A DNA stretch of 64,000 nucleotides from NCBI RefSeq assembly GCF_000517085.1, contig NZ_KI912107.1:4957980-5021979 (forward strand), given 5' to 3'. Below the pieces are notes generated by a model. It was not told the origin of the DNA. It saw only the letters and a program-made list of their open reading frames with translations, and did no database searches. Positions 8,118 to 25,974 of the stretch are shown in pieces (within the stretch, counting starts at the first letter, position 1; every line of letters starts with the position of its first letter). Source of the stretch: Saccharicrinis fermentans DSM 9555 = JCM 21142 (lineage in GTDB: Bacteria; Bacteroidota; Bacteroidia; Bacteroidales; Marinilabiliaceae). Made by a program: the position numbers and the translations under genes.

Positions 8118-8125
8118 ATGATAAG

Positions 8126-8854: not shown

Positions 8855-8869
8855 TGGGATAAATATTGA

Positions 8870-9550: not shown

Positions 9551-9610
9551 ATGATATTCGGTTTGATAATGGAAAATAGTAAATAATATAAATATATGAA
9601 GCGAGCCGTT

Positions 9611-9688
9611 GGAATTGTTTAGAGCATAGGTAGATGACTAAGTATGGCGAGTTTTATATGATCATTGAAAAATAAATTTAAACAGATG
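9611..9688 (+). promoter_or_regulatory. promoter-like leader element R1 (copy of R2)
   Basis: The 60 bases from 9611 match 10921-10980 at about 43 positions without gaps, and each copy ends in an ATGAAACA about 75 bases after its start. Both have TTG (9615-9617 here) followed 21 bases later by a one-mismatch form of the Bacteroidota -7 box TAnnTTTG (TAAGTATG, 9639-9646). In this copy the downstream ATG at 9686 opens only a 15-codon mini-ORF that stops before the SDR start at 9759. I infer an internal promoter and leader. Confidence 0.5.
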
Positions 9689-9758
9689 AAACAGGCATGG
9701 TCAGCGCAAATGATTAAATTTTGTATTGGCTAGTGGAGTTTCGCTAATTTTTAAACAG

Positions 9759-10871: not shown

Positions 10872-10920
10872 TATTATACCTTGTTTTATTCAAAGTATGG
10901 TCGATGAATCTTGACAGTAT

Positions 10921-10999
10921 GGAATTGTTTCGCACATAAGGAAATGATTTATTTTGGTGAGTTCCATATGGCCTCTGAAAGAAAAATTATTATCATATG
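10921..10999 (+). promoter_or_regulatory. promoter-like leader element R2 (copy of R1)
   Basis: Second copy of the leader described at 9611. TTG at 10925-10927 is followed after 21 bases by TTATTTTG (10949-10956), one mismatch from TAnnTTTG, and the copy ends at the start codon of the CDP-alcohol phosphatidyltransferase (10997). The matching flanks (GGAATTGTTT on the left, GAGTTnnATATG on the right) could also bind a regulator. This divides the lipid run into separately startable units. Confidence 0.5.
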
Positions 11000-11593
11000 A
11001 AACAAATATTAGTGAAAGGGGAAAACATATTGAATGTCCCCAATTTAATCAGTCTTTATCGTCTTCTTGTATTTCCAGTCATTATGTACATGGCGCTTAC
11101 GGAGCAAGAGAATTGGTTTGTTATTTTGCTGTGTATAAGCTTGGTTAGTGATGTGTTAGACGGTAATATTGCGCGCTTTTTTAAGTTGCAAACGCATTTT
11201 GGCGCAGCGCTGGATAACTTGGCCGATATATGCACCTATGCCATGGCTTTGTTAGGATTATTTCTGTTTAAATGGACAGAGATAGAACCGCATGCACTGA
11301 TTCTATATATCTTTTTAAGCTTTTTTGTGTTGAGTTATTTTGTGTCTTTTTTTCGTTTTGGAAAAATACCTGGATTGCATTTGTACTCAGCAGTGTCGGC
11401 TGGGTATATACAAAGTATCTTTTTCTTTGTGCTTTTTGTGTTTGGCTTTTATCCTTGGATGTATTATCTGGCAGTAGGTTGGGGTGCCATTGCTTATATG
11501 GAAAAGATATTGGTTCTTTTTAAGTTGAAGGACATCGAAATTGGTGTTAAAGGACTTTATTGGATTATAAAAAAAGAAAAAAATAATCAGTAA
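10997..11593 (+). CDS. CDP-alcohol phosphatidyltransferase
   Basis: A 198-residue membrane protein with the full CDP-alcohol phosphatidyltransferase signature: D52, D55-G56-x2-A59-R60, G69-x3-D73-x3-D77 (DVLDGNIAR ... GAALDNLAD). These enzymes swap the CMP of a CDP-lipid for an alcohol such as serine, glycerol phosphate or inositol phosphate at the inner membrane. The head group cannot be told from sequence. It probably acts after the CdsA-like enzyme of the same run. The start is the ATG at 10997 just behind leader R2, and its stop is 10 bases before the ATG of the DUF5686 gene. Confidence 0.9.
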   Translation: MKQILVKGENILNVPNLISLYRLLVFPVIMYMALTEQENWFVILLCISLVSDVLDGNIARFFKLQTHFGAALDNLADICTYAMALLGLFLFKWTEIEPHALILYIFLSFFVLSYFVSFFRFGKIPGLHLYSAVSAGYIQSIFFFVLFVFGFYPWMYYLAVGWGAIAYMEKILVLFKLKDIEIGVKGLYWIIKKEKNNQ

Positions 11594-11602
11594 TTGTTTT
11601 GT

Positions 11603-14050
11603 ATGAAGTCGAGGGTTTCAGTGGTTATTTTATGCCTTATTTCTTTTACGGGTATCTTTGCGCAAAATATTTCCGGTTTTGTAAAGGAGCAGGGAAGTGA
11701 TGAGGCTATTCCATTTGCCAATGTATGGATTAAAGGTACCACAGAAGGAATCTTGACAGATGAGAATGGATATTTTGCCATTGAAAACCCAACGAATGAT
11801 ACATTATGTGCTTCGTCTGTTGGGTTTGTTTCAAATGAAGTATTGTTTAAGCGGAATGTGGACCGTACAAAAAATATCTATCTTAAAAAGGATGTACAGT
11901 TAATTGATGATGTTACTATTAACGCCAAGATGCCCATTGTAAAGGTAATCTTTAAAAGGATCCAAGCGCATAAGAAGGAAAATAGGGAGCAAATCAATGA
12001 GGTAAAAGATTATAAGTCTCTCGAAAATACAACCGTTTATGTGGCTATTGATTCGACAGCTGGCGTAACACGTATTTTTGATGATATCAATGAGGTGACT
12101 GTGAAAATGGATCATCAGCAATTAAGATTTTCTCCTATTTACTTGTATGAACAGGCCTTGAGTGTTGAAAATAATAAAGATAGCGTTATTTATAGTAAGA
12201 AGGATGGTATATTTCCACGTATAAATCAGGCTATTGAGACTTATGTTCTTCAGAATGTTGCAGTGGATTTAGATTTCTATAAAGAACAAATTTTTATTAT
12301 GGATAGAGGTTTTATCTCGCCCATAAGTAGCGCTGCAATGATGTACTATAATTTGTATTTTAATGATAGTACCAGGGTCAACAACAAGAAGTATTATCAC
12401 TTTACTTTTGCGCCTAAAAATAGGTATAACTCTTTGTTTTCTGGTCAGTTTACTGTTGAGGAAGGTAGTTATGCTCTCACGGATATTGTGGCACATATTC
12501 CAGGAGAGGCCAATCTGAATTTTATTAATGGTTTCAAGGGGCATGTGCGTTACCAACGTCTGCCCAATGGAAAATGGTTTTATGGTGCCCGACAGGTGGA
12601 TATTAATATGTCCTTGACGCTCAATAAAGATACTGCCACTGTTTATGATTCGCAACGTGTGAATGAAGTGTCTAGTGGTAATTGGTTGATTAACAAATCA
12701 ACTGTCTATTCTACTTCAGCACAGTTGGATCATGTAAAGGCAAGTGAGTGGAAGGACCAAACGGCGTTTAAATCCAATCAGTTGGCTGAGAGTACCTATA
12801 AGAGAGTTGAGAATTTAAAGGATAACAGCTATGTGAAAGCTGTCGATGCCATTGGAGGTATGGCATTGTCGGGTTATATGAATGTGGGCAAACTAGATAT
12901 AGGTCCAGTCTTTGATATTTACAGTACCAATACCATAGAAGGAACGCGTTTAACGGTTCCTCTTAGAACCAGTGAAAAGATGTGGGAAGATTTTTATGTG
13001 GGTGGTTTTTTAGGTTATGGAACTAAAAATAAGGAAGTGAAGCATGGTGTGAATGTGGCTTATAGACCACTTCTTGATGACAAGTTTATTCTTCGGTTGG
13101 CTTATAGTAATGATTATAATTTGGTTTCTCAGGATAAGTTTTTACGTTTTGTCAAAAATAATCCAAATACAAAAGGCAATAGTAACTTTATTGCTGCTTT
13201 TACGACAAAGGAGAAAAATCCATATCTTAAAGAAGAAAAGAGTGTTGAGCTGCGTGTGGAGTATAATGCCGAAAATGATTTTCATGTGGAGATATCTCCA
13301 TATTATCTAAAAAGTTATCATACACCAGCGGTTACATTTCAAAAGAATGGAGTGATGTTTGACAATTATAGTAACTACGGTGTACTGACTAATTTTAGAT
13401 ATGCTTTTGGACAGGATTATGATTTGTATTTCTTTAATCGTGTGTACTATGCAACGCCCATACCTATCGTCAATTTGGGTTTCGATCTGGGACAAGCTTT
13501 GTTGCCTGGTGGAAAGATGAGTAAAGCAGGATGGTATGGGCAGATTCATGGTTCAGTACAAGGCCGTTTGATAATGGGACAGGTGTTTATGAACTATATG
13601 CTCAATGGTGGTTATTTGTTTGGAGATGCACCATATGACTTACTGGATCAACCGGTTGGTTCTATGTCTTTGGGCTATGCCAAATATCGTTTTAACTTGC
13701 TGCACCACGCTGCCTTTGCACATAATATCTATGCGAATACGCATTTTCATATTAATGGTGGGGGGCTCATTTTGAACCGGATACCTCTTATCCGAAAGTT
13801 AAAGCTGAGAGAAGTGGTTTCTTTTAAAGGTCATTATGGAAGAATAACTGACTCTTATTCGGGGGTTTTTGATTTGCCAGGGTATTATTCAAATGATTCG
13901 AACACACCTTATGCCGAAATAGGATTCGGCTTAACCAATATATTTAAAGTGTTGCGAGTAGAGTATGCGCGATTGGTGGGAAGTGCATATGAGGGGAAAA
14001 GTTATACGGATAAAAATGGGATATTCTTTAGAGCTGAAATGAGTTTTTAA
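11603..14050 (+). CDS. DUF5686 outer-membrane protein with carboxypeptidase-like N-terminal domain
   Basis: About 815 residues from the ATG at 11603 (MKSRVSVVILCLISFTGIFA is a signal peptide; the upstream in-frame TTG is unlikely). Residues about 22-105 form a CarboxypepD_reg-like beta-sandwich (ISGFVKEQGSDEAIPFANVW). The rest is the long beta-rich region typical of DUF5686, ending in an aromatic-terminated outer-membrane barrel strand (GIFFRAEMSF). Family members occur widely in Bacteroidota outer membranes without a settled function. Its place inside a lipid operon suggests a role in placing or moving the lipid product at the outer membrane, which is inference. Confidence 0.8.
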   Translation: MKSRVSVVILCLISFTGIFAQNISGFVKEQGSDEAIPFANVWIKGTTEGILTDENGYFAIENPTNDTLCASSVGFVSNEVLFKRNVDRTKNIYLKKDVQLIDDVTINAKMPIVKVIFKRIQAHKKENREQINEVKDYKSLENTTVYVAIDSTAGVTRIFDDINEVTVKMDHQQLRFSPIYLYEQALSVENNKDSVIYSKKDGIFPRINQAIETYVLQNVAVDLDFYKEQIFIMDRGFISPISSAAMMYYNLYFNDSTRVNNKKYYHFTFAPKNRYNSLFSGQFTVEEGSYALTDIVAHIPGEANLNFINGFKGHVRYQRLPNGKWFYGARQVDINMSLTLNKDTATVYDSQRVNEVSSGNWLINKSTVYSTSAQLDHVKASEWKDQTAFKSNQLAESTYKRVENLKDNSYVKAVDAIGGMALSGYMNVGKLDIGPVFDIYSTNTIEGTRLTVPLRTSEKMWEDFYVGGFLGYGTKNKEVKHGVNVAYRPLLDDKFILRLAYSNDYNLVSQDKFLRFVKNNPNTKGNSNFIAAFTTKEKNPYLKEEKSVELRVEYNAENDFHVEISPYYLKSYHTPAVTFQKNGVMFDNYSNYGVLTNFRYAFGQDYDLYFFNRVYYATPIPIVNLGFDLGQALLPGGKMSKAGWYGQIHGSVQGRLIMGQVFMNYMLNGGYLFGDAPYDLLDQPVGSMSLGYAKYRFNLLHHAAFAHNIYANTHFHINGGGLILNRIPLIRKLKLREVVSFKGHYGRITDSYSGVFDLPGYYSNDSNTPYAEIGFGLTNIFKVLRVEYARLVGSAYEGKSYTDKNGIFFRAEMSF

Positions 14051-14074
14051 TAGCGAATAGCAATAGAGCCAAAA

Positions 14075-14869
14075 ATGAAAGATCTAAAAGATAAAGTAGT
14101 ATGGATTACAGGGGCATCTTCAGGAATAGGTGAGGAGCTGGCTTATGCTTTGGCACGAGAGGGAGCACGTCTGGTGTTAACGGCTCGTAATAAAGCGCAA
14201 ATTGAAAAAGTAAAAAGCAAATGTTTGTTGCATACTTCTTATTGTTGGATACAGTTGATGGATTTGTCAAAGGTAGAGCAAATAGATAGTGCCGTGAAAG
14301 AAGTGCTTGAACAGACAGGAAAGATAGATGTATTGATTAATAATGCAGGCAGAAGTCAGCGTTCGCTGGCCAAACACACACCACTGGGTATTGACAGAAG
14401 TATTATGGAGCTCAACTTCTTTAGTATGGTGGCTTTAACAAAGTCTGTTTTGCCATCGATGTTGCATCACGGAAGTGGACATATAGTGGCGGTGAGTAGT
14501 ATAACGGGAAAGTTTGGATTTCCTTGGCGTACCGCTTATGCAGCCTCAAAACATGCGGTGCAAGGTTTCTTTGAGTCGTTGAGAGCTGAACTTAATCAGG
14601 ATCATATTCATGTTACTATTGTTTCCCCAGGAAGAATTAAAACAGATATTTCATTAAAGGCGCTGACCGAGAATGGACAAGCGTATAATATAATGGATAA
14701 GGGACAGCTCAATGGAATGGGAGCTGATGCCTGTGCCAGGCAGATTGTGAAGGCGATTAAAAAAAATCGAAAAGATATATTGGTGGGACGTCAGGAATTG
14801 GGGATGGTATATATACGTAAATTATGGCCGTCATTATATCATCGTTTGGTTTTAAAAATAAAGAACTGA
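14075..14869 (+). CDS. classical short-chain dehydrogenase/reductase
   Basis: A 264-residue cytoplasmic SDR. The cofactor motif TGASSGIG is at residues 12-19, NNAG follows near residue 90, and the catalytic set is Ser142, Tyr155 and Lys159 (YAASK), with the usual 13-residue Ser-Tyr spacing. This group (DltE/DHRS7-like) often reduces or oxidises lipid or ketone substrates. The gene lies 24 bases after the DUF5686 gene, with only a short gap before the VOC gene, and is the second reductase of the cluster. The substrate is unknown. Confidence 0.88.
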   Translation: MKDLKDKVVWITGASSGIGEELAYALAREGARLVLTARNKAQIEKVKSKCLLHTSYCWIQLMDLSKVEQIDSAVKEVLEQTGKIDVLINNAGRSQRSLAKHTPLGIDRSIMELNFFSMVALTKSVLPSMLHHGSGHIVAVSSITGKFGFPWRTAYAASKHAVQGFFESLRAELNQDHIHVTIVSPGRIKTDISLKALTENGQAYNIMDKGQLNGMGADACARQIVKAIKKNRKDILVGRQELGMVYIRKLWPSLYHRLVLKIKN

Positions 14870-14954
14870 TAGTAGAACAAGAACGTAATATAAAAAAACC
14901 TGCATATCCGGTTCATATTGATATGGGGTGTATGGGTTGTTAATTTTTAAACAT

Positions 14955-16010
14955 ATGGAAAAAAATATATGTGGAATCCAGCAAATTGGAGTAGGTGTTA
15001 AGAATGCCAAAGAAGCTTGGAAATGGTATCGGAGCGCTTTTGGAATGGATATTAATGTTTTTGAAGATACGGCTGTTGCAAAATTAATGCTTCCGTACAC
15101 CAATGGTCAACAATGTGAGCGTTATGCTGCATTGGCCATGAATATGGAAGGGGGCGGAGGATTCGAAATATGGCAACATACGGGTATTGAACCTAAGAAA
15201 CCGGTATTTGATGTGCAGTTAGGTGATTGTGGTATTTTTATAGCGAAAATGAAATGTAGAAATGTGCATCGGGCTTTTGAAAAACATCGCGAAATGGGTG
15301 TGAACATATTGGGTGCTTTATCAGAAAACCCCGTGGGGCAACTCCATTATTTTATGAAGGATCCTTATGATAATATCTTTGAGGTGGTGCATGATACAGA
15401 TAATTATATGAATCAGAAATCATTAACCGGAGGAAATGCAGGTGCTGTGATTGGGGTGTCTGATATTGAAGAAGCTAAAAAGGTGTACCTGGATATTCTT
15501 CAATATAATGAAGTGATTTATGATAAGTCGGGTGTTTTTGAAGATTTTAAGGAGCTGCCAGGTGGAGATCAAAAATATCGTCGGGTACTGTTAAAACATA
15601 AACCAAGAACAGGTCCTTTTAGTAAGTTGTTGGGACCTACACAAATAGAGCTTGTTCAGGCACTGGAGCGAAGACCGCGAAAGATATTTCAAAACCGTAT
15701 CTGGGGTGAGTTGGGTTTTATTCATTTGTGTTTTGATATCATGGGCATGGAGGCTTTAAAGGAAGAATGTAAAGTAAAAGGATTTCCTTTTACGGTTAAT
15801 AGTGCCGATAGCTTTGATATGGGAGTGGCCGCTGGGCACTTCTCCTATATATCAGACCCGGATGGAACACCCATTGAATTTGTTGAAACCCATAAGTTGC
15901 CCATAGTGGAAAAATTGGGATGGTATATGAATCTTAAAGGAAGAAATCCCAAAAAATCATTGCCTAACTGGATGATTAAGACGCTTTTATTCAGTAGGGT
16001 GAAGGATTGA
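14955..16010 (+). CDS. VOC (glyoxalase/dioxygenase superfamily) protein
   Basis: About 351 residues from the ATG at 14955, chosen because MEKNICGIQQIGVGV is a normal VOC opening; the upstream in-frame ATG at 14928 adds nine non-conserved residues. Two VOC units can be traced (about 5-135 and 145-320), as in two-domain dioxygenases of the HPPD type. The first-strand metal ligand, usually His, is Gln in the first unit (QQIGVGV), whereas GFIHLCFDI and DGTPIEFVETH in the second could supply His and Glu. The substrate is unknown. It is the last gene before a strong terminator and probably belongs to the lipid run. Confidence 0.75.
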   Translation: MEKNICGIQQIGVGVKNAKEAWKWYRSAFGMDINVFEDTAVAKLMLPYTNGQQCERYAALAMNMEGGGGFEIWQHTGIEPKKPVFDVQLGDCGIFIAKMKCRNVHRAFEKHREMGVNILGALSENPVGQLHYFMKDPYDNIFEVVHDTDNYMNQKSLTGGNAGAVIGVSDIEEAKKVYLDILQYNEVIYDKSGVFEDFKELPGGDQKYRRVLLKHKPRTGPFSKLLGPTQIELVQALERRPRKIFQNRIWGELGFIHLCFDIMGMEALKEECKVKGFPFTVNSADSFDMGVAAGHFSYISDPDGTPIEFVETHKLPIVEKLGWYMNLKGRNPKKSLPNWMIKTLLFSRVKD

Positions 16011-16053
16011 GAGCTGCAGTTTTCTGTGTAGAGTGAATTTACAATGGATATAT

Positions 16054-16096
16054 AATGGCATATGCTGAGAATCATCAGTGTATGCCATTTTTTTTT
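16054..16096 (+). terminator. rho-independent terminator after the lipid run
   Basis: A stem of 15 pairs (16054-16068 with 16075-16089, two of them G-U) around a six-base loop, followed by an unbroken run of T to 16096. It lies 44 bases past the VOC stop and marks the 3' end of the plus-strand lipid run. Confidence 0.85.
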
Positions 16097-16275
16097 GGGG
16101 CGTTTTCTGGTTATTACGTAGAGGGGGTGTGTTTGGAATTTCTGTTTTAATCCGGATGATGCATTGGAACATCGTAATGATTTTTCTAGTGCTTTTTTTA
16201 GTTTAATGGATTAAATAATTGACTTATAGTGGTTTTTTTTCTTACATTGAAGAGGAACATTAAAACTTCTATTTT

Positions 16276-17577
16276 ATGAATCCCATTCAATTTGTTTCTA
16301 CAGAACAGCTCAGTCAGAGTCTAGATGATCCTAATATTAAACTTATCGATATCCGTCCTGTAGATGCCTATAATGGTTGGCGGCTTATGGACGAAGAAAG
16401 AGGAGGACACATAAAAAACGCCAAGTCTCTACCTTTTAAATGGATCAGTTATATGGATTGGATTGAAGTGGTTCATGCAAAACAGATCCGTTGGGATCAG
16501 CGAATAATTATTTATGGTTACTCCGATGAAGAATGTGAGAAGGTGGCGTCTTTGTTTCAAAAAGCTGGTTATGATGATGTCAGTATCTATTCACATTTTC
16601 TATCGCAATGGGTTCGTAACGCCCAGCTTCCTATGCAACATCTTGCCAGATATCAGCAACTGGTTTCTGCGGAGTGGGTAAAGGAAGTGGTGGACGGTAA
16701 AGTGCCACACACACATCCCGGAGGCAATACCGTTATCTGTCATTCGCATTACAGAAACAGAGAAGCCTACCTGAGTGGTCATATTCTTGGCGCTATTGAT
16801 ATCGATACTTTGTCTTTGGAAGCACCTGAAACATGGAATCGGCGATCTCCGGATGAATTGAAAAAGGCCTTAGAGGAACATGGTATTACTTCTGAAACGA
16901 CAGTTATTTTGTATGGTAAATTCATGTGGCCGGATAATGGTGATGAGTTCCCGGGAAGTGCAGCAGGGCATATTGGAGCAATTCGGAATGCCTTTATTAT
17001 GTTGTATGCAGGAGTTAAAGATGTGCGTGTGCTCAATGGAGGTTTTCAAAGCTGGAAGGATGCTGGTTTCGAAATAAGTAGAGTGGATGAACCCAAGAAG
17101 AAAGTGGTAGATTTTGGGGTTGATATTCCTGCTCAACCACAATTGGCTGTTGATGTGCCTGAAGCCAAAAAGATGATCGAAGCGGATGATGCAGATGTTG
17201 TTTGTGTGCGAAGTTATCCTGAGTATATAGGTCAGGTAAGTGGTTACAATTATATCAAAAAAAAGGGCCGTATTCCCGGGGCTATATTTGGTAATTGCGG
17301 TTCGGATGCATATCACATGGAAAACTACCGTAATGTTGATCATACCACACGTGAATATCATGAAGTGGAAGAGCAGTGGAAAGAGTTAGGTATTACGCCG
17401 GATAAGCATTTGGCTTTCTATTGTGGAACAGGCTGGCGAGGTAGTGAAGCCTTTTTTAATGCTTGGCTGATGGGGTGGCCTAGGGTATCCGTTTATGATG
17501 GTGGATGGTTTGAGTGGAGCAATGATCCTGCTAATCCTTATGAAACGGGTGTGCCCAAGGAAGTGTCGATATTATAA
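16276..17577 (+). CDS. eanB: three-module rhodanese; probable EanB (hercynine sulfur transferase)
   Basis: A 433-residue cytoplasmic protein made of three rhodanese modules (about 8-120, 135-275, 290-425). Only the last has a catalytic cysteine: Cys383 in CGTGWR. The active-site loops of the first two carry Gly in its place (IYGYSDEE; LYGKFM), so they are structural. The architecture and the gene next door (an EgtD-type methyltransferase 40 bases downstream) match the anaerobic ergothioneine pair described in Chlorobium, where EanB moves polysulfide sulfur onto hercynine through a rhodanese Cys without oxygen. No EgtB-like oxidative enzyme is present. The alternative is an ordinary thiosulfate sulfurtransferase. 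Module calls are firm; the ergothioneine role is inferred from context. Confidence 0.72.
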   Translation: MNPIQFVSTEQLSQSLDDPNIKLIDIRPVDAYNGWRLMDEERGGHIKNAKSLPFKWISYMDWIEVVHAKQIRWDQRIIIYGYSDEECEKVASLFQKAGYDDVSIYSHFLSQWVRNAQLPMQHLARYQQLVSAEWVKEVVDGKVPHTHPGGNTVICHSHYRNREAYLSGHILGAIDIDTLSLEAPETWNRRSPDELKKALEEHGITSETTVILYGKFMWPDNGDEFPGSAAGHIGAIRNAFIMLYAGVKDVRVLNGGFQSWKDAGFEISRVDEPKKKVVDFGVDIPAQPQLAVDVPEAKKMIEADDADVVCVRSYPEYIGQVSGYNYIKKKGRIPGAIFGNCGSDAYHMENYRNVDHTTREYHEVEEQWKELGITPDKHLAFYCGTGWRGSEAFFNAWLMGWPRVSVYDGGWFEWSNDPANPYETGVPKEVSIL

Positions 17578-17604
17578 TTGTACCCCCATGTAATATAGCT
17601 TAAA

Positions 17605-17610
17605 AAGGAG
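17605..17610 (+). promoter_or_regulatory. Shine-Dalgarno that fixes the methyltransferase start
   Basis: AAGGAG at 17605-17610 lies seven bases before the ATG at 17618. A strong Shine-Dalgarno is unusual for this phylum and supports 17618 over the in-frame TTG at 17612. Confidence 0.6.
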
Positions 17611-17617
17611 ATTGGTT

Positions 17618-18619
17618 ATGAGTGTTAATGATGAGGTTTTGTTAATTCATGAGTTTGTTGAGAATATTAAAGTCCTGCATAAGGATGCCAGGCAACAAGT
17701 CATTGAAGAAATACGCGAAGGTTTAAGTGCTCCCCAAAAATATATAGCACCTAAGTTTTTTTATGATGAGATAGGCTCTGAGTTATTTGAAGAGATTACT
17801 CACCTTCAAGAGTATTATCCAACCCTTACGGAGAAAAAAATTATATCAGGACTTTATCCTGATCTAGGTATTGATTTTCGTGGTTTAAATGTGATTGAGC
17901 TGGGTAGTGGAGATCATTCCAAAATAAATCTTTTGTTGAGTCAAGTACCAAAGAAGATATTGCCGACCATAAGGTATTATCCCATTGATATCAGTAAAAC
18001 GGCCATTATTCGAGCAACGAGTCATTTAAGTTTGCAATTGCCAGATTTGAAAGTATCCGGAGTGGTGGCTGATTTTATACATCAGTTGCCACAACTGTCC
18101 TTTCCCGGACGTAGCTTGTTTTTGTTTTTTGGGAGTACAATAGGTAATCTTCTGCCGTCTGAAATGAAGGCATTTATGGAAGATATATCCTCCATAATGC
18201 AGCCAGGTGATTATTTATTAATGGGTATGGATTTGGTGAAAGATATTTCTGTACTTGAGAAGGCCTACAATGATTCTAAGGAGATAACAGCAAAATTTAA
18301 TAAAAACGTGTTACGTGTGATAAACAAGCTTACCGGAAGCGATTTGTGTAGCCATCAATTTAAGCATAAGGCTTTTTTTAATGAAAAAATGAGTCGTATT
18401 GAAATGCATTTGGAGGCGAAAGTAAGCATGTGCATGGATTTTCCTTTGTTAAATAAAAGGGTTCAATTTAAAGAAGGAGAAACCATTCATACAGAAAACT
18501 CGCATAAATTCACCAAGGAATCCATTAAAGTAATTGCAGAGCTTGGATGTCTCCATCTAGAAAATATTTTTATGGACGAAAAAAAATGGTTTAGTTTAGC
18601 TTTATGCAGCAAACGATAG
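17618..18619 (+). CDS. eanA: L-histidine N-alpha-methyltransferase (EgtD/EanA)
   Basis: About 333 residues. It carries the EgtD-type methyltransferase fold: APKFFYDEIGSELFEEIT near residue 45, SAM motif ELGSGDHSK (94-102), YYPIDIS, FFGSTIGNL and LLMGMDLVKD. EgtD trimethylates histidine to hercynine with three SAM. The substrate-binding segments and length match the family. The gene follows the rhodanese gene by 40 bases on the same strand, so hercynine made here would be the sulfur acceptor of EanB. It ends eight bases before the convergent malic enzyme gene. The start is set by the ATG at 17618. The histidine methyltransferase call is strong; use in ergothioneine is inferred from the pairing. 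Confidence 0.88.
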   Translation: MSVNDEVLLIHEFVENIKVLHKDARQQVIEEIREGLSAPQKYIAPKFFYDEIGSELFEEITHLQEYYPTLTEKKIISGLYPDLGIDFRGLNVIELGSGDHSKINLLLSQVPKKILPTIRYYPIDISKTAIIRATSHLSLQLPDLKVSGVVADFIHQLPQLSFPGRSLFLFFGSTIGNLLPSEMKAFMEDISSIMQPGDYLLMGMDLVKDISVLEKAYNDSKEITAKFNKNVLRVINKLTGSDLCSHQFKHKAFFNEKMSRIEMHLEAKVSMCMDFPLLNKRVQFKEGETIHTENSHKFTKESIKVIAELGCLHLENIFMDEKKWFSLALCSKR

Positions 18620-18627
18620 GTGGCGCT

Positions 18628-20922
18628 TTATTGTGAGCTATCCAATGTTGATTTAATTTGTGCATCAACGGTGGCAATGGTAATCATATTGAGTATCTCA
18701 CGTACAGAACTGCCCATTTGTAAAATATGCACAGGTCGTTTCATGCCAAGAATGATAGGACCTATCGCTTCACCACTCTTCATTACCTGTAATAATTTGT
18801 AGGCGATGTTAGCGGATGTGAGTGTTGGGAAAACCAGTACATTGGGTTCGTTTCCTATTAAATCAGAAAAGGGGTAGTTTTCCTTTAATTCGTCCTGATT
18901 AAATGCAAAGTTGGCTTGTATTTCTCCGTCGGATATAATCTCGGGATAGTTTTGTTTCATCAAAGCTGCAGCTTTGCGGACCAATGTGGGTTCTGCATCG
19001 TCTGATGAGCCAAAGTTTGAGTAGGCTAAGAATGCTACTTTAGGCTCTATGTTCATCATTTGTTTGACGGCTTTGGCTGCCTGGTAGGCAATGTCAACCA
19101 GTTCTTCTGATGTAGGCTTGGGGATCATGGTTGTGTCAGTGAAGAAAAGAGGACCACGTTTGGTAAGCATCAGGTACATGCTGGATACTTTTTGCCCAGG
19201 GCCATTGGTGCCAATAATCTGGAGTGCAGGTTTGATTGTTTGGGTGTATTTTCTGCTGATACCTGAAATAATAGCATCGGCCTCTCCGGTTTCCACCATC
19301 ATACAACCAAAGTAGTTGCGTTTCTTCATCTCATTGTAGGCTTCGTACGGGTTGTATCCTCTTCTTTGTCGTTTGTCGAAAAAGAATTTTCCGTAGCGCT
19401 CCACTATGTGAGCTGATTCTTTGCTTTGAGGATTGATTATTGCTGTGTCATGTAGTTCTAACTGGTGTTTTTCTATCAAGGCTTTAATTTTATCTTCATC
19501 ACCCAATAAAATAGGATGGGCAATGCCTTCATCCATGGCAATTTGGGCAGCTTTTAAAACCCGGTAATCTTCGGCTTCGGCAAAAACAATTCTTTTGGGG
19601 TGCTGTTTGGCTTTGTTGGTTAAACGACGTATGATCATGTCGTCATGTCCTAGCCGCTTAACTAAGCTGACTTTGTATGCATCCCAATCTGTAATAGGAT
19701 TTTTTGCTACTCCACTGTCCATTGCGGCTTTTGCAACTGCAGGTGCAACAACGGTTAATAGTCTTGGGTCAAGCGGCTTGGGGATGATGTAGTCACGCCC
19801 AAAAGTAATATTGTCTTTGTTATACGCTTTTATGACCACCTCGGGTACTGGTTCGCGAGCTAGCTCAGCTAATGCTTTTACGGCAGCTAGCTTCATGGCC
19901 TCGTTAATTTCGGTAGCTCTCACATCCAAGGCACCTCTAAATATAAAAGGAAAACCCAATACATTGTTCACCTGATTAGGATGGTCGGAGCGGCCAGTAG
20001 CCATGAGTACATCATCGCGGGTAGCCATGGCCAGGTCGTAGGCAATCTCAGGATCCGGATTGGCCAGGGCAAAAACAATGGGATTGGGTGCCATGGATTT
20101 AAGCATCTCAGGTTTCATTACATTTCCTTTGGATAATCCGAGAAATACATCGGCATTCACAAGTGCATCTTCTAGTTGCCATAGGTCCTGGTCGGTTGCA
20201 AATTCCTTTTTTGAGGATACTAAGTCTGCCCTGTCGGAACGGATAACTCCCTTGGAATCGCAAATTACAATGTTCTTCTTACGAACTCCCAGTTCTATTA
20301 ATATTTTGGTGCATGAAATAGCAGAAGCACCTGCTCCCGATACAACGACCCTTACTTCATGTGATTTTTTGTTTACCAGTTTTAAAGCGTTCAGCATGGC
20401 TGCTCCGGATATGATGGCTGTTCCGTGCTGGTCGTCGTGCATAATCGGTATATTAAGCTCTGCTTTTAACCTTCTTTCAATTTCAAAGCAGTCCGGGGCT
20501 TTTATATCCTCCAGATTGATGCCGCCAAAGGTAGGTTCCAAAGCTTTTACAACGGTAATGAATTCTTCGATATTGGTGGAGTTTATTTCCAGATCGAATA
20601 CGTCTATTCCTGCAAATATTTTAAAGAGCAGCCCTTTTCCTTCCATTACAGGTTTGGATGCTTCGGGACCAATATCTCCAAGTCCTAAAACTGCTGTTCC
20701 GTTTGAAATGACGGCTACTAAATTTCCCTTGGCCGTATATTTATATACATCATCCACATTAGCAGCAATCTTTCGGCAGGGCTCGGCTACTCCCGGCGAA
20801 TAAGCCAGCGCCAAGTCTCGCTGTGTCTTGGTTGCTTTTGTGGGAATGACTTCAATCTTTCCAGGTGTACCTTTGGTATGGTAGTCCAATGCATCTTGGA
20901 TTCTGATTTTTGAGTCGGCCAT
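18628..20922 (-). CDS. maeB: NADP-dependent malic enzyme with phosphotransacetylase-like domain
   Basis: A 764-residue fusion of full length for MaeB. Residues 1 to about 425 are malic enzyme: AYSPGVAEPCR near the N-terminus, a Lys/Asp active site region (GNLVAVISNGTAVLGLG), MHDDQHGTA metal and substrate site, and VVSGAGASAIS Rossmann motif. Residues about 430-764 are a phosphate acetyl/butyryl transferase-like domain that in MaeB proteins is regulatory and senses acetyl-CoA. It converts malate to pyruvate with NADP reduction. It is transcribed alone towards the methyltransferase gene. Nothing unusual is seen in the active-site motifs. Confidence 0.96.
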   Translation of the reverse strand: MADSKIRIQDALDYHTKGTPGKIEVIPTKATKTQRDLALAYSPGVAEPCRKIAANVDDVYKYTAKGNLVAVISNGTAVLGLGDIGPEASKPVMEGKGLLFKIFAGIDVFDLEINSTNIEEFITVVKALEPTFGGINLEDIKAPDCFEIERRLKAELNIPIMHDDQHGTAIISGAAMLNALKLVNKKSHEVRVVVSGAGASAISCTKILIELGVRKKNIVICDSKGVIRSDRADLVSSKKEFATDQDLWQLEDALVNADVFLGLSKGNVMKPEMLKSMAPNPIVFALANPDPEIAYDLAMATRDDVLMATGRSDHPNQVNNVLGFPFIFRGALDVRATEINEAMKLAAVKALAELAREPVPEVVIKAYNKDNITFGRDYIIPKPLDPRLLTVVAPAVAKAAMDSGVAKNPITDWDAYKVSLVKRLGHDDMIIRRLTNKAKQHPKRIVFAEAEDYRVLKAAQIAMDEGIAHPILLGDEDKIKALIEKHQLELHDTAIINPQSKESAHIVERYGKFFFDKRQRRGYNPYEAYNEMKKRNYFGCMMVETGEADAIISGISRKYTQTIKPALQIIGTNGPGQKVSSMYLMLTKRGPLFFTDTTMIPKPTSEELVDIAYQAAKAVKQMMNIEPKVAFLAYSNFGSSDDAEPTLVRKAAALMKQNYPEIISDGEIQANFAFNQDELKENYPFSDLIGNEPNVLVFPTLTSANIAYKLLQVMKSGEAIGPIILGMKRPVHILQMGSSVREILNMITIATVDAQIKSTLDSSQ

Positions 20923-21104
20923 AGTAGTTGTTTTAGATATGAAATTAAAAATAAAGATTTTACTTCAGGTATTCAATGAGTAAGATCAATTGTTTTCCAT
21001 ACCAAAACAATAGAATTTAATAAAGGTTTAGAATAAACACTTTTCAATAATTGCTTATAAACGAGTGGATTTAGCTATTATATTGTTAATCAGAAAATTT
21101 ATTA

Positions 21105-21128
21105 CGAAGTTCTAATGCATCATTTGGG
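21105..21128. repeat. short repeat shared with 61429-61452
   Basis: Twenty of 24 bases match 61429-61452. Read on the minus strand both lie in short open stretches with related peptides (YPNDALEL here, IPDDVLEL there), each ending in a nearby stop. This suggests relics of one gene or element, but the evidence is slight. Confidence 0.3.
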
Positions 21129-21199
21129 TATGAAACAGGGATGGTTTGAAAACCATTTGCGTATTTGCTTTTGTGTCACAATGTTTTTGAGATACTTAT

Positions 21200-22078
21200 T
21201 TAATTTTGTGTTCCTGCATTTCCTATTTTATATTCGTAATTGCCAATTGTTACGGTGGATGATGAGGAACAGTCGGCAATTTGATCCTCATTTTCGTCTA
21301 CAAAATAGTTGATATTTATATCTGGACTGTTGTCAATATAGACATCAACAATGCCACTTTTGATATAGGGGCAGATGGGTGCTACTTCCAAAGGGTTGTT
21401 ATCGCGTATGGTAAGTAGGTAAGTAATGCCGTTAGAGCATATTCCGGATTGAACCCCTTCTATTAAATATGAATCATCCCAAATATTCAAAGGTGTATCG
21501 TCACCTGTTATGCAGGTGCGTGTGGTTTGTTGTTCAAAATGAAGTACCTGTCCTTGTTCATTGGTCACTTGGCCGTTACTCACTTCTACTTTAAAAACTA
21601 AATGTCCGTTGCTATCTTTTCCTAGGTTATTAACGGTATGGATACCTTCAATCTGATGATCATTTTGAAAGTAATTCTCGAAAGTGGCAATGTACTTCGA
21701 TCCCTGTTGATTGAACCATGTGTTTTCAAGTTGAATATGTATTTTCCCTTTTCGTACCCTTCCATCAAGCCCTAGTGTTCCATTGGTACCGTAGTCTACC
21801 GTTATGGATAATGGGAAGGTAGCTAAGTCACTTGGTGAATAGATAATATCCGGACCTGTAATGGATTTTGTATTATTGTCTTCTTTGTTCTCAGAATATG
21901 AAACTACATAATCACAAGCGTTATTAACTCCTTGGAAATGGCGGGCTGCCTGTGTGTAGTCGGTCATTGCATCAATTGCTTCCACCGTGCTAATGGATGC
22001 ATTTTCGGTTTCTATCTGGTCGCAATTATATACACTTAATCCTATGGCAACCGTACTTAACAATAGTTTTGTCTTCAT
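21200..22078 (-). CDS. hypothetical exported protein, possible lipoprotein
   Basis: A 292-residue protein of unknown family. The N-terminus (MKTKLLLSTVAIGLSVYNC) is a signal peptide; Cys19 could be lipidated, but Asn at -1 is atypical for a lipobox. The mature part is beta-rich, Asn/Thr/Ser-rich and lacks obvious catalytic motifs (for example TFENYFQNDHQIEG, NLGKDSNGHLVFKVEV). It probably sits in the periplasm or on the outer membrane. It is flanked by maeB and hydG on the same strand with gaps of 277 and 113 bases, so it is likely its own unit. Confidence 0.65.
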   Translation of the reverse strand: MKTKLLLSTVAIGLSVYNCDQIETENASISTVEAIDAMTDYTQAARHFQGVNNACDYVVSYSENKEDNNTKSITGPDIIYSPSDLATFPLSITVDYGTNGTLGLDGRVRKGKIHIQLENTWFNQQGSKYIATFENYFQNDHQIEGIHTVNNLGKDSNGHLVFKVEVSNGQVTNEQGQVLHFEQQTTRTCITGDDTPLNIWDDSYLIEGVQSGICSNGITYLLTIRDNNPLEVAPICPYIKSGIVDVYIDNSPDININYFVDENEDQIADCSSSSTVTIGNYEYKIGNAGTQN

Positions 22079-22191
22079 TCTAAAGAAATTATTAATGCAA
22101 GTTCTACGAAGAATTATATTTTAGGTTTCCTTAGTGACTATTTTTGTGCTATATGCCGATTATGATGGGAATGTGAAGTTAGCCTGATGTG

Positions 22192-23625
22192 TTAAAAGTA
22201 TAAATCACGTTTTCCTTTTTTTATCTTTTCCAAACGTTTTATTAGTTTTTCTTTGAAGTGAATATCTTCATAGGCCTCGAGTTCTTTTTCGATGAGTTGA
22301 TATCCTTTTGTTTTGGTTTTTTGGGGTGCGTAATCCTCTAAATACTCTGCCAGAGTGAGGATGGCATTAGGTTGACAAAAACGTTTTATAAAACCGGGAA
22401 CTGAAAATTCCATAAAATGTTCTCCGGTTCTGTTTAGTCGGTAGCAAGCGGTGCAGAATGACGGAATAAAACCGTTGTCTACCAGCTCTTCCATTATTTC
22501 ATTGAGGGAGCGCTTGTCTTTTATTTCAAATTGTTCTTTGTCAATGTTTTGTTGTTCATCGTCCTTAGAATATCCTCTCATTTCAATATTTGTACCACCA
22601 TCAATTTGTGAAACACCATATTGAAGCACTTCGTCCCGGATATGCGCCGGTTCCCGAGCAGTGAGTATGAGTCCGGTATAAGGAACGGCCAGCCGTAGTA
22701 TGGCCACTAATTTGGTGAAGTCTTCATCAGAAACGATCCACCGCGGATCCATTTCAATACCAGATGCATCTTGTATTCTTGGGAAAGAGATGGTGTGTGG
22801 ACCCACATTAAACACCGCTTCAAAGTGGTTTACATGACGAATCAAACCCATTATTTCGTAACGCCAATCATAAAGTCCGAGCAATGCTCCAATGCCCAGA
22901 TCATCAATGCCTCCTTCCATGGCTCGGTCCAAGCCTGTAATGCGCCAGTCGTAATCTCGTTTGAGCCCACTTTTATGTACCTTTAAGTAGGTTTCACGAT
23001 GGTAGGTCTCTTGAAATATCTGATAGGTTCCAATGCCTGCTTCTTGAACGATTCTAAATCCATCAATATCCAAAGGAGCTGCGTTGATATTAACACGTCT
23101 TATTTCTCCGTTTTTATGCTTAACCGAATATACCGTTTGAACCGATTCTGCTATGAAATGTGCATTGTATTTGGGGTGTTCTCCATATACGAGGATGAGG
23201 CGTTTGTGGCCGGCATCTTCCAATGCAGTTACCTCTTGTTTTAGATCATCACTAGTGAGAGTTGTTCTTTTTTGGGCTGTATTCTCGGCTTTAAAGCCAC
23301 AGTAGGTGCAGTTGTTGATGCACAGGTTACCTATGTAAAGCGGTGCAAAAAGAACGATTCTTTTTCCGTAAATGTTTTGCTTTAAGGTTTTGGCTGCGTC
23401 CTTAATTTCTGCGACCAATGTGGGGTCATTGGCATTCACCAAAAGGGCTGTGTCGAATAGAGAGAGTCGTTGCTTGTTCAATGACTTCTGAATGATAGTT
23501 TTTACTTGTTCTTGGGTGGGATTTCTTGTGGCTTCTAATATCTCAATGATTTCGTCGTGATCGATAAAATTCTTCATCGACTCATCTTTGATTTTATATT
23601 CTTGGGGATGGTAAATTATAGACAT
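22192..23625 (-). CDS. hydG: [FeFe] hydrogenase maturase HydG (tyrosine lyase)
   Basis: A 477-residue radical-SAM enzyme that splits tyrosine to make the CO and cyanide ligands of the [FeFe]-hydrogenase H cluster. The SAM iron-sulfur site is Cys102-x3-Cys106-x2-Cys109 (CINNCTYCGF), and the second cluster site is the exact C-terminal CX2CX22C (CTACYRLNR ... RFC) that separates HydG from ThiH. Length is normal. ATG at 23625 is used; an internal Met at residue 17 is possible. A TAATTTTG promoter box lies just upstream. HydE, HydF and the hydrogenase are not in this window, so HydG stands apart from its partners. Confidence 0.95.
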   Translation of the reverse strand: MSIIYHPQEYKIKDESMKNFIDHDEIIEILEATRNPTQEQVKTIIQKSLNKQRLSLFDTALLVNANDPTLVAEIKDAAKTLKQNIYGKRIVLFAPLYIGNLCINNCTYCGFKAENTAQKRTTLTSDDLKQEVTALEDAGHKRLILVYGEHPKYNAHFIAESVQTVYSVKHKNGEIRRVNINAAPLDIDGFRIVQEAGIGTYQIFQETYHRETYLKVHKSGLKRDYDWRITGLDRAMEGGIDDLGIGALLGLYDWRYEIMGLIRHVNHFEAVFNVGPHTISFPRIQDASGIEMDPRWIVSDEDFTKLVAILRLAVPYTGLILTAREPAHIRDEVLQYGVSQIDGGTNIEMRGYSKDDEQQNIDKEQFEIKDKRSLNEIMEELVDNGFIPSFCTACYRLNRTGEHFMEFSVPGFIKRFCQPNAILTLAEYLEDYAPQKTKTKGYQLIEKELEAYEDIHFKEKLIKRLEKIKKGKRDLYF

Positions 23626-23651
23626 GTTTTTGCGTTCGCGGTTAACTGGTG

Positions 23652-23659
23652 CAAAATTA
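23652..23659 (-). promoter_or_regulatory. -7 promoter element of hydG
   Basis: Read on the minus strand the bases are TAATTTTG, a perfect TAnnTTTG. They lie 26 bases upstream of the hydG start codon. No clear TTG is seen at -33. Confidence 0.45.
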
Positions 23660-23843
23660 AGGTCTTTTGCCGATAAAGTGCTATTACAGGGCTTATTTGT
23701 TTGTTGATTATTGAAAAAAGGATGAGAAGAGGTGATTTTCTCACCGGTTAGTGTAGTTACTAACCGATGAGTTTTATTGTTTTATGCCACACGTATTGTT
23801 TTGGGCGTTTTCTGTACGATCGTTATTTTATATGGTTTGTCTT

Positions 23844-25388
23844 TTATTTTTCATATCCAGTTGCGTGAACTTCTTCTGTCTTTACAGGTGTAGATTTGTT
23901 GGAGGAAGATTCTTTTGACTGAATAAGTATGACGCCATTTTTGCCTTCTACACCATATTTTTGTGTGGCTTGTTTGTCTTTAAGTATGTTAATGGATGCA
24001 ATGTTTTCGTTGGAAATTTTGATCAACTCAGCTTTTGTTATTTTTTTTCCATCTAAAATAACTAATGGATCTATGTCTTTTAAAGTGTTTTCATCCATTA
24101 AATTACTTTCGCTATTGTCATTTATTTGTAATTTAAAATTAATAGGGATGGTATATGATACTTTCACTGCTTTTCCCTTGTGGATTCCAGGCTTCCACTG
24201 AGGCATTGAGCTGACGACTCTGAGTGCTTCTTCATCTATGGACTGATGGACCCCTCGGGCTATATTGACATCTGTAACATAGCCTTCTTCATCAACAATA
24301 AACTTAACATAAACGTTACCCTGTATATTATTTTCCTGGGCATACACCGGGTATTTCACTTTTTGGGCTATGAATTCTCTAATCGCCTGATCGCCACCTG
24401 GAAATTTTGGTATGGAGTCAGTAATAAAGTATACGCGGGTGGAATCTCCCAGTATATAACTGTTATTGTTGGATGTTGATTTTAAGCTCAGGATATCTTC
24501 AGTATTTTCTATGTCGGAGCTTAGTTCGTTGTCACATGCAAAAAAGAACCCTACGCCAGCGATCATTAATATGGCTGTAATGGTTTTTACCAATGCTTTG
24601 TTTGTAAGAATTTTATTTGTCATCATTTTGAATCGTTTTTTAGTAATTGATTGATTAAAGTTGTTGACAGGCAGTAATTGGGCCCCAGTGGCCTGACATA
24701 ACAACAGTTTTTTGTAAGAGCCGATTGTTGTTCCTTTTTGTAATACAGAATGGTCGGCTTGAAATTCGTGCAACTCCTTTAGCAAAATCTTTATTAACCA
24801 GGCAAAGGGGTTGAACCATTGAACAATGAGAAGAGTCTCAAACAGTAGTACATCCAATGAATGTCGATGTTTGATGTGTGCCATTTCATGAACCATAATT
24901 TTATTCAGATCGTCATCGGAATAGCGTGATCGGTTGATGAAAATGATATGAAAAAACGAAAAAGGATTGAATTTGCCAGATAAGTCGGCTATTCTTAGTC
25001 CTTTATATTTATGCCAAGTTGCTTTTTGTGATAATCCACCCAATTGAATGATGCTCCATAGTAATCTGGTTACAAGGAAAATGGAACCTATCCAATACAG
25101 CCAGGCGAAAGATTTATTTTCGGCAATTACCGGAACAACCATTTTACGCATGTCCTCTGAAAATACGTTTACTGAATCGAGTAGTACTACAATATTAGAT
25201 GTTTCTGTATTTACCGTGTAAAAAGAGATATGAACTAAGGGAATGGTAGATGCCAATAGTAATGAGAATAATAAGAAAAATCTATTGAATTTAAAAAGAG
25301 GTTCGTAGTGTAGTACAAAGCGATAAAATAGGGTTAATATTCCCAATATTATCGAGGCCTCTATTAGGTAACTGATGAAATTTTCCAT
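23844..25388 (-). CDS. BlaR1-type M56 metallopeptidase sensor with TonB and plug-like C-terminus
   Basis: A 514-residue membrane sensor. Four membrane segments surround an M56 zinc peptidase with His167-Glu168-x2-His171 (HEMAH) and a third-ligand region HEFQAD near 207. After a further membrane segment (about 262-284) comes a TonB C-terminal-type domain (about 330-420; FPGGDQAIREF, GNVYVKFIVDEEG, MPQWKPG). The last 70 residues (PLVILDGKK, SINILKDKQATQKYGVEGKNGVILI) resemble the plug motif of SusC receptors. BlaR1 relatives cleave the partner BlaI-type repressor when they sense an envelope signal. The BlaI-type gene is 49 bases upstream in the same unit. The inducing ligand is unknown; nothing nearby encodes a beta-lactamase. 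Confidence 0.9.
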   Translation of the reverse strand: MENFISYLIEASIILGILTLFYRFVLHYEPLFKFNRFFLLFSLLLASTIPLVHISFYTVNTETSNIVVLLDSVNVFSEDMRKMVVPVIAENKSFAWLYWIGSIFLVTRLLWSIIQLGGLSQKATWHKYKGLRIADLSGKFNPFSFFHIIFINRSRYSDDDLNKIMVHEMAHIKHRHSLDVLLFETLLIVQWFNPFAWLIKILLKELHEFQADHSVLQKGTTIGSYKKLLLCQATGAQLLPVNNFNQSITKKRFKMMTNKILTNKALVKTITAILMIAGVGFFFACDNELSSDIENTEDILSLKSTSNNNSYILGDSTRVYFITDSIPKFPGGDQAIREFIAQKVKYPVYAQENNIQGNVYVKFIVDEEGYVTDVNIARGVHQSIDEEALRVVSSMPQWKPGIHKGKAVKVSYTIPINFKLQINDNSESNLMDENTLKDIDPLVILDGKKITKAELIKISNENIASINILKDKQATQKYGVEGKNGVILIQSKESSSNKSTPVKTEEVHATGYEK

Positions 25389-25437
25389 TGATTAAATTTG
25401 ATTCATTTAGTTTTGATCATTGGGATCTTAGTAACGG

Positions 25438-25821: not shown

Positions 25822-25831
25822 TTTTCTATAA

Positions 25832-25901
25832 AACTAAAATATTAGTTCAAACTTACAACTAATATTTTAGTTCTACAATTTTTTAAACTAAAATTTCAGT
25901 T
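25832..25901 (-). promoter_or_regulatory. three BlaI-type operators over the blaI promoter
   Basis: Three near-palindromes of the form AACTAA-n4-TTAGTT: 25832-25847, 25857-25872 (the exact reverse complement of the first) and 25886-25901 (one variant base). On the minus strand TTG (25878-25876), a 20-base spacer and a perfect -7 box TAAGTTTG (25855-25848) form the promoter. Operator 2 lies in the spacer and operator 1 over the start point, so repressor binding would block RNA polymerase. Confidence 0.85.
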
Positions 25902-25924
25902 TGTGTAGGATGGGGAGGGGCAAA

Positions 25925-25957
25925 AAAAAGCCATACCTTTTTTAGGTATGGCTTTTA
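25925..25957 (-). terminator. hairpin terminator of yebC
   Basis: A 13-pair stem (25926-25938 with 25944-25956) around five T, flanked by runs of A on the left, which read as T on the minus strand. It lies 19 bases past the yebC stop and keeps yebC transcription out of the blaI operators. Confidence 0.8.
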
Positions 25958-25974
25958 TGTAAGGGATATTTTTA

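Follow-up and report, generated by a model that had tools for sequence, protein, structure and literature searches.

The oxygen-free pathway to the antioxidant ergothioneine was first proven with the enzymes of a green sulfur bacterium. Two PDB entries are used here as references: 6ktv, which we take to be the same protein as 6h9a (Chlorobium limicola EanB), and 4pim, EgtD of Mycobacterium smegmatis. Asn166, Met252, Glu282, and Ser284 of EgtD are histidine-pocket residues. C. limicola EanB is Clim_1149 (PDB 6h9a; PMC7278568). According to excerpts of PMC9103826, Cys412 is its catalytic cysteine and bears the persulfide; the same excerpts and those of PMC10903977 describe Tyr353 as proton donor and acceptor for the imidazole, and assign to Thr414 and Arg417 the orientation of hercynine and the stabilisation of a proposed carbene. 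Another ergothioneine synthase, MES, is presented in an excerpt of PMC9516567 as a metallopterin-dependent enzyme, a metallopterin–desulfurase fusion.

The original prediction held that ergothioneine is little described in anaerobes of the Bacteroidota, which is less true than had been thought. An excerpt of a review (PMC11993508) credits ergothioneine and anaerobic-type genes in Salinibacter ruber to Burn et al. 2017, and excerpts of PMC11767532 report ergothioneine formation with EanAN of a "Bacteroidales bacterium" in Bacillus licheniformis, together with an EanB-like Anaerobacillus protein. No paper of the open-licence library searched here treats ergothioneine, Bacteroidetes, and rhodanese together. 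The gene pair described here is an addition to the already known EanB–EanA pathway, with related cases in print.

The gene pair and its catalytic residues

The window, i.e., the whole stretch of DNA analysed, comprises 64,000 nucleotides of NZ_KI912107.1 (positions 4,957,980–5,021,979; assembly GCF_000517085.1) from Saccharicrinis fermentans DSM 9555 = JCM 21142, a member of the Marinilabiliaceae. Both predicted genes are present where they had been placed, on the plus strand. The first (16276–17577) is an eanB homologue encoding a three-module rhodanese of 433 residues, a predicted hercynine (trimethylhistidine) sulfurtransferase, i.e., ergothioneine synthase. PF00581 matches this protein in three rhodanese stretches with 145.2 bits. 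Its residues 7–428 align with 6ktv at 684 bits (E = 8.8e-205), and 279 of 422 positions (66.1%) are identical to C. limicola EanB in an ungapped alignment. The second gene (17618–18619) is an eanA/egtD homologue encoding a predicted L-histidine N-alpha-methyltransferase of 333 residues, which scores 319.2 bits against PF10017 and matches EgtD 4pim with E = 1.1e-56; at such E values, both structural matches are far beyond chance. The residues aligned to EgtD Asn166, Met252, Glu282, and Ser284 are all kept. Its ATG at 17618 lies 40 bases past the eanB stop, and AAGGAG precedes it in the spacer (17578–17617, plus strand). The histidine methyltransferase expected at this distance is borne out by the EgtD equivalog TIGR03438 (330.1 bits, cut-off 290.9). 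A terminator-like hairpin of 15 pairs followed by a T run (16054–16089, plus strand) separates eanB from an upstream glyoxalase-fold gene, which suggests that eanB and eanA form a transcription unit of their own; such sites were called by consensus match only, with 6 in 15900–18800 vs. 2.2 expected in shuffles.

By alignment, Cys383 (17422–17424, plus strand), in the CGTGWR motif of module 3 (LAFYCGTGWR), corresponds to EanB Cys412, Tyr324 (17245–17247, plus strand) to Tyr353, and Thr385 to Arg388 (17428–17439, plus strand) to Thr414 to Arg417. The position of the catalytic cysteine is occupied by Gly81 in module 1 (16516–16518, plus strand; IIIYGYSDEE) and by Gly214 in module 2 (16915–16917, plus strand; VILYGKFMWP). 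The protein has five cysteines (87, 155, 310, 341, and 383), of which only Cys383 is in a catalytic position, as the original prediction had claimed.

Judged from sequence, gene adjacency, and genome-level co-occurrence, the eanB and eanA genes very probably act together as a unit that makes ergothioneine without oxygen. EanA would use S-adenosylmethionine to put three methyl groups on the alpha-amino nitrogen of L-histidine, which yields hercynine. Cys383 of EanB would take up sulfane sulfur, either from polysulfide or as a persulfide from a desulfurase, and Tyr324 would protonate and deprotonate the hercynine imidazole as the sulfur moves to carbon 2. Hercynine and sulfur would thereby yield ergothioneine in one step without O2. 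We infer the substrate, sulfur donor, and chemistry of the window pair from the Chlorobium enzyme.

Distinction between EanB and YnjE

Alignment with proven EanB, proposed as a check on the prediction, found the equivalents of Tyr353, Cys412, Thr414, and Arg417 in the window protein and in every alignment row that reaches that far. The residues are kept, but their presence is not diagnostic for EanB, because E. coli YnjE (PDB 2wlr) keeps all four. YnjE is also the next relative of known structure to the window protein (324.6 bits). The rhodanese might thus be a YnjE-like sulfurtransferase, acting as a molybdopterin sulfur carrier or in general persulfide transfer, with its EgtD neighbour being incidental. 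The border between the two kinds of enzyme may moreover be soft, as a sulfurtransferase with 38.43% homology to EanB served as an ergothioneine synthase, according to excerpts of PMC11767532. However, the window protein is 66.1% identical to EanB vs. 42.7% to YnjE, i.e., it is not closer to YnjE. EanB-invariant columns were defined as those in which no more than one of 120 EanB rows deviates, the truncated rows L130 and L134 being left out of this count and of the EanB tree. The single YnjE used for contrast differs at 26 such columns, including those in a stretch that YnjE is without, and the window protein carries the EanB letter at 26/26. A PF10017 gene is also present in 41/42 rows with a close relative of the rhodanese (two samples; one genome, G000, is counted twice), and three relatives have the rhodanese and EanA in one frame. 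A YnjE-like function is therefore considered very improbable against these observations, and the assignment as EanB is preferred. The usual check of catalytic residues fails to separate EanB from YnjE, whereas the 26 columns do so in this sample.

Co-occurrence, gene fusions, and phylogeny

Two sets of genomes were compared, a phylum sample of 395 genomes of Bacteroidota and an order sample. EgtD is present in 18/18 EanB-positive genomes vs. 110/377 others in the former, and in 23/24 vs. 11/174 in the latter; the p-values of both samples ignore relatedness. The EanB–EanA arrangement originally proposed is thus supported at two levels, sequence identity and genome-level co-occurrence. EgtD was found in 128 genomes of the phylum sample, of which 110 have EgtB, 16 have EanB, two have both, and none has neither. 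This split leads to a testable claim, namely that making ergothioneine without O2 is a normal option in this phylum and is not peculiar to green sulfur bacteria. The pairing rule for EgtD is incomplete in the order sample, since neither EanB nor EgtB exceeds its cut-off in 9/34 PF10017-positive genomes. In this sample, EanB and EgtD lie on different contigs in 8/24 EanB-positive genomes, and two further genomes from the family of S. fermentans are without EanB.

At 74/120 EanB loci, EanA lies inside the fetched stretch, always on the same strand (74/74) and downstream in 73/74. Labilibacter marinus (L009) and L. sediminis (L010) are relatives that also carry the pair, and Salinimicrobium has EanB and EgtD and no EgtB above the cut-off. 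EanB and EanA share one open frame at three loci, L022 and L063 among them, in one of which the EanA half is incomplete; a single-frame gene of this kind is a candidate for turning histidine into ergothioneine on its own. Fused EanA and EanB were not found in the open-licence library searched, where, in the excerpts retrieved, "fused" and "fusion" refer to expression tags, fusion-protein references, and OvoA/OvoB.

Two groups of EanA accompany EanB (rows of 200 residues or fewer were left out of the EanA tree), and the distances of EanB and EanA correlate in both, with Mantel r values of 0.62 (n = 39) and 0.59 (n = 34) and 0/999 shuffles as high. In the second group, 32/34 rows have Ser at the position of EgtD Met252, and the substrates of the wider family might therefore vary. 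Accordingly, a different product can be envisaged for the window pair, such as another hercynine-derived thiol, or action on another methylated histidine-like compound. Yet the window EanA belongs to the first group, exceeds the EgtD cut-off, and retains Met252 along with the other three pocket residues; such a product is extremely unlikely here, and ergothioneine remains the predicted one.

The tree of EanB describes a sample picked by likeness to the window protein, because its named loci were taken as the top 80 among 313; none of them is named as archaeal or Bacillota. In this tree, Chlorobium EanB nests in a Bacteroidota-dominated set, apart from the window branch. A wider proposal, to which we give slightly less than even odds, is that EanB fully replaces EgtB in oxygen-respiring, facultative, and anaerobic lineages of Bacteroidota in the wide GTDB sense. 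The Chlorobium enzyme, the type of the "anaerobic" pathway, would then have branched off late within a larger radiation of sediment Bacteroidota, and in some of these Bacteroidota EanB and EanA would have become fused into one two-step ergothioneine enzyme.

Host metabolism and comparison with known systems

The reported absence of EgtB near the pair extends to the whole genome of S. fermentans: no protein exceeds the TIGR03440 cut-off of 360 bits, the top stretch reaching 40.2 bits. These low-scoring stretches were dismissed as EgtB on score, and probably belong to the wider formylglycine-enzyme-like family. No second PF10017 gene was found in the genome besides that at 17618–18619. The view of the genome as fermentative stands in part, with a HydG maturase encoded at 22192–23625 of the window. 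However, the genome also encodes two oxidase subunits I, one aa3-like (652.5 bits, slightly below its cut-off, 670.75) and the other a fused protein of the cbb3 type (1142.3 bits, cut-off 1080). A strictly anaerobic or fermentative host was dismissed on account of these oxidases; the host is not simply fermentative, and the gene content makes a pure anaerobe unlikely. A third COX1-family protein (L137, 757 aa) has no NCBIfam match at E 1e-30 and may resemble a quinol nitric oxide reductase. With its respiratory oxidases, S. fermentans joins the predicted oxygen-free ergothioneine makers.

Intact genes might still belong to a pathway that is silent or very weak in S. fermentans. In line with this, an excerpt of a 2018 mBio paper gives no evidence that ergothioneine was a major thiol of the tested Chlorobiaceae (PMC6282198), which is weak counter-evidence because the strains that the paper names as tested differ from those for which it lists EanA. 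Against silence, an excerpt of PMC11993508 lists Salinibacter ruber as a producer. That the frames are open and the residues conserved, both here and in relatives, also suggests selection for function. A silent pathway is accordingly regarded as unlikely, and a working two-gene unit is the favoured reading.

The window EanA resembles EgtD 4pim in family (TIGR03438, PF10017) and histidine-pocket residues, but, unlike the M. smegmatis enzyme, its partner is EanB and not EgtB. The rhodanese has the same four catalytic-site residues as YnjE, from which it is set apart by identity, by the stretch conserved in EanB, and by the 26 columns. EanAN comes from the same broad group as the window EanA, and its partner in the excerpts of PMC11767532 is the Anaerobacillus sulfurtransferase. 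The closest counterpart is C. limicola EanB, with which the window protein shares three rhodanese modules, the catalytic cysteine in module 3, and the equivalents of Tyr353, Thr414, and Arg417, although it comes from a different host lineage and from a host with terminal oxidases.

The eanB–eanA pair and its flanks

The rhodanese gene of the window (16276–17577, + strand) encodes 433 residues with three rhodanese stretches, in which the catalytic-cysteine site is occupied by Gly81 (first module), Gly214 (second), and Cys383 (third). Its best relatives of solved structure are 6ktv, 6h98/6h9a, and their kin; 6ktv, which we take to be the same protein as 6H9A, i.e., Chlorobium limicola EanB, aligned to residues 7–428 with 684 bits (E = 8.8e-205). 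The window protein and C. limicola EanB are identical at 279 of 422 residues. In PMC7278568, 6H9A is described as C. limicola EanB (Clim_1149). The residues critical for EanB, with roles described in PMC10903977 and PMC9103826, are all present: Tyr353, Cys412, Thr414, and Arg417 correspond to Tyr324, Cys383, Thr385, and Arg388 of the window protein, where the EanB numbering was fixed by a three-residue offset, after which all four letters match the published ones. However, this check, which the original prediction had proposed, cannot alone separate EanB from its E. coli cousin YnjE (the one contrast sequence, from NC_000913), because the eight positions compared (353 and 411–417) carry identical letters in YnjE. 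Therefore, columns invariant in EanB (at most one exception among 120 EanB rows) that differ in YnjE were listed. There are 26 such columns among the 98 invariant ones, and the window rhodanese has the EanB letter at 26/26. In addition, a stretch around EanB 248–260, present in the EanB rows shown, is missing from YnjE. Judged by sequence, the window rhodanese is an EanB. The functional border of EanB may be softer than its sequence border, since PMC11767532 reports that ergothioneine was obtained using a sulfurtransferase whose homology to EanB was only 38.43%.

The second gene starts with an ATG at 17618, preceded by AAGGAG and 40 bases past the rhodanese gene, and extends to 18619 on the + strand (333 residues). 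By its profile matches, its product, METHYLTRANSFERASE (window 17618–18619), is an EgtD-type methyltransferase: it passed the NCBIfam equivalog TIGR03438 with 330.1 bits (cut-off 290.9) and matched Pfam PF10017 with 319.2 bits. In the EgtD of M. smegmatis, Asn166, Met252, Glu282, and Ser284 line the histidine pocket, and the window methyltransferase has the same residues at the aligned positions. It is the only PF10017 gene detected in the genome search. The original prediction of an EanB–EanA pair is borne out by sequence and by the co-occurrence across genomes described below.

A terminator-like hairpin (16054–16089, consensus match) lies between a glyoxalase-fold gene and eanB, and a convergent malic-enzyme/phosphotransacetylase-like gene (18628–20922, − strand) lies downstream. 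Since these set the pair off on both sides, eanB–eanA is probably a two-gene unit. The upstream run (9726–16010), from which the hairpin parts eanB, encodes a thioester-reductase-like epimerase, a CDP-alcohol phosphatidyltransferase-like protein, a DUF5686 protein, a short-chain dehydrogenase, and a two-module glyoxalase-fold protein, and is perhaps involved in lipid metabolism.

Host respiration and distribution of EanB, EgtD, and EgtB

EgtB had been noted as absent near the pair, and this holds genome-wide: no EgtB scored over the cut-off anywhere in the 5.98 Mb (4 contigs, 100% complete), the best stretch reaching 40.2 bits against 360. The accompanying view of a fermentative genome stands only in part. 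HydG suggests an FeFe hydrogenase, but the aa3-like and cbb3 oxidase genes speak against a pure fermenter. Three COX1-family genes are present. One encodes an aa3-like subunit I, which scored 652.5 bits to TIGR02891 (slightly under the cut-off of 670.75) and is followed by a subunit III look-alike as judged by eye; another is a fused cbb3 CcoNO (1142.3 bits, cut-off 1080). The third (locus L137, 634–2907; 757 aa, 218 bits) had no NCBIfam match at E 1e-30 and is perhaps a quinol nitric oxide reductase. We infer that a facultative host is the likeliest reading.

A census was made with EanB query P0001 at E ≤ 1e-60, PF10017 at E ≤ 1e-20 for the EgtD family, and EgtB over its cut-off, the window’s genome being counted in both samples. 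Among 395 genomes of the window’s phylum (Bacteroidota in the GTDB sense, by named relatives), EanB was found in 18, the EgtD family in 128, and EgtB in 112. The EgtD family accompanies EanB in 18/18 genomes versus 110/377 others, a co-occurrence whose Fisher values, here and in the order sample, ignore kinship. The 128 EgtD genomes comprise 110 with EgtB only, 16 with EanB only, two with both (G087 and G116), and none with neither. Among the 198 genomes of the order sample, the corresponding numbers were 24, 34, and 4, with the EgtD family in 23/24 EanB genomes versus 11/174 others; in the sole exception (G426), EanB is truncated at a contig start. EanB and EgtD lie within 6 kb in 15 of the 24 and on separate contigs in 8. 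EanB and EgtB occur together in G408 and G523, and the two other genomes of the window’s family in this sample have no EanB.

Nine of the 34 EgtD-family genomes in the order sample have neither EanB nor EgtB (G403, G411, G445, G486, G495, G519, G542, G572, and G586; stretches L157–L165), and some of them are incomplete. Pairing of EgtD with either EanB or EgtB is therefore not a complete rule in this sample. At least some of their proteins are probably not true EgtD, because the methyltransferase of L157 scored 225.2 bits, below the EgtD cut-off of 290.9, and has Gly for the Glu282 equivalent. Some of the nine may use the metallopterin enzyme MES, and some may hold other methyltransferases. 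In L157 (312–1238 and 1295–3205), whose genome had no EanB or EgtB in the order-sample census, the methyltransferase comes after a protein of 637 aa that combines a ferredoxin domain with DUF1858 and a stretch resembling DUF2249; a 637-aa neighbor of the same kind is encoded in L162 (1147–3057).

A scan for relatives, with one genome per species, found 313, of which the best 80 were kept. These best 80 of 313 include Marinilabiliaceae (Labilibacter, Saccharicrinis), Prolixibacteraceae, Flavobacteriaceae (Salinimicrobium, Lutibacter), Ignavibacteriota, Chlorobiota MAGs, and others, and 24 of them lack EanA in the fetched stretch. Searches of 26 genomes (18 of these 24, and eight with linked EanA) detected a PF10017 gene in 25, all but L019; thus, 17 of the 18 without linked EanA carry one elsewhere. 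EgtB exceeded the cut-off in three of the 26 (L012, L019, and L086), and the L032 genome has an EgtB fragment of 338 bits. All nine Salinimicrobium genomes searched have EanB with EgtD elsewhere and no EgtB over the cut-off (loci L029, L036, L039, L042, L048, L058, L059, L062, and L069); oxygen-respiring organisms may thus also use the O2-independent route.

Gene order, trees, and single-frame genes

In 74 of 120 EanB loci (five genomes entered twice, as identical rows), EanA lies within the fetched stretch, always on the same strand and downstream in 73/74. Among the 81 loci examined for it, 20 carry a small DUF427 gene (PF04248) no more than 3 kb away from EanB, e.g., L020 9298–9576; in the window (8001–27000), no frame of at least 80 aa clusters with these genes. 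By identity to the window’s EanA, the 74 linked EanA split into two groups, of 42.5–60.4% (40 loci) and 29.5–34.8% (34 loci). The second group (e.g., L073 9295–10239 and L034 10701–11663) is found next to otherwise similar EanB. It has Ser at the Met252 position in 32/34 rows, and the two members scanned scored 293.3 and 291.1 bits, just above the EgtD cut-off. The two groups cluster strongly on the EanA tree, for which the program gave a long-branch warning, but are not clean clades, since 3 and 2 changes are needed.

In a quick EanB tree of 121 rows, the window EanB clusters with two Labilibacter rows (98*), and C. limicola EanB with three rows of family f19, one of which (L093) is 91.5% identical to it. 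This group lies inside a 35-row set (96*), otherwise composed of Bacteroidota and one row labeled Patescibacteria. That the Chlorobium enzyme is a derived branch is only a lead from this tree, because similarity to the window protein decided which rows entered it, and no row in it is named as archaeal or Bacillota. EanB and EanA distances are correlated within the groups (Mantel r 0.62, n = 39, and 0.59, n = 34; 0/999 shuffles as high), above the value over all (r 0.29, n = 73). Saccharicrinis aurantiacus (L073) combines a second-group EanA with an EanB that falls elsewhere in the tree. Since its genus is very near Labilibacter (as described in PMC6767994) and it differs in both respects, exchange between lineages is likely.

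EanB and EanA share one open frame in three metagenome-assembled or unnamed contigs: L022 (6922–9171, 749 aa), L063 (8001–10247, 748 aa), and L121 (1498–3525, 675 aa). The EanA halves of the former two passed TIGR03438 (342.4 and 348.8 bits, respectively); that of L121 is incomplete, since its frame reaches a stop codon six bases short of where the fetched stretch ends and covers roughly two-thirds of the EanA profile. In the EanB tree, L063 is sister to L121 and L022 branches apart from them, which suggests two fusions. These naturally occurring genes are candidates for a path from histidine to ergothioneine that needs only one gene.

Proposed chemistry and known systems

EanA would convert histidine to hercynine using three SAM, a reaction established for EgtD/EanA. 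Sulfane sulfur would then load on Cys383 of EanB, and Tyr324 would serve as acid/base while the sulfur passes to C2 of hercynine. The EanB step is disputed between nucleophilic substitution and a carbene, as discussed in PMC9516567 and PMC10903977.

No description of an EgtB/EanB partition in Bacteroidota, or of a natural EanB–EanA fusion, was found in the portions of the open-licence literature covered. EanA and EanB from C. limicola are already established; PMC7278568 names methanogens in addition, PMC11993508 presents Salinibacter ruber as a producer with anaerobic-type genes, and PMC11767532 describes the expression of EanA from a ‘Bacteroidales bacterium’. For the Chlorobiaceae tested, PMC6282198 states that there was no evidence of ergothioneine as a major thiol, which says little on gene carriers, because the tested strains it names are not those listed with EanA. 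What deserves to be passed on is the broader census, the finding that the catalytic residues are not diagnostic, and the genes with EanB and EanA in a single frame.
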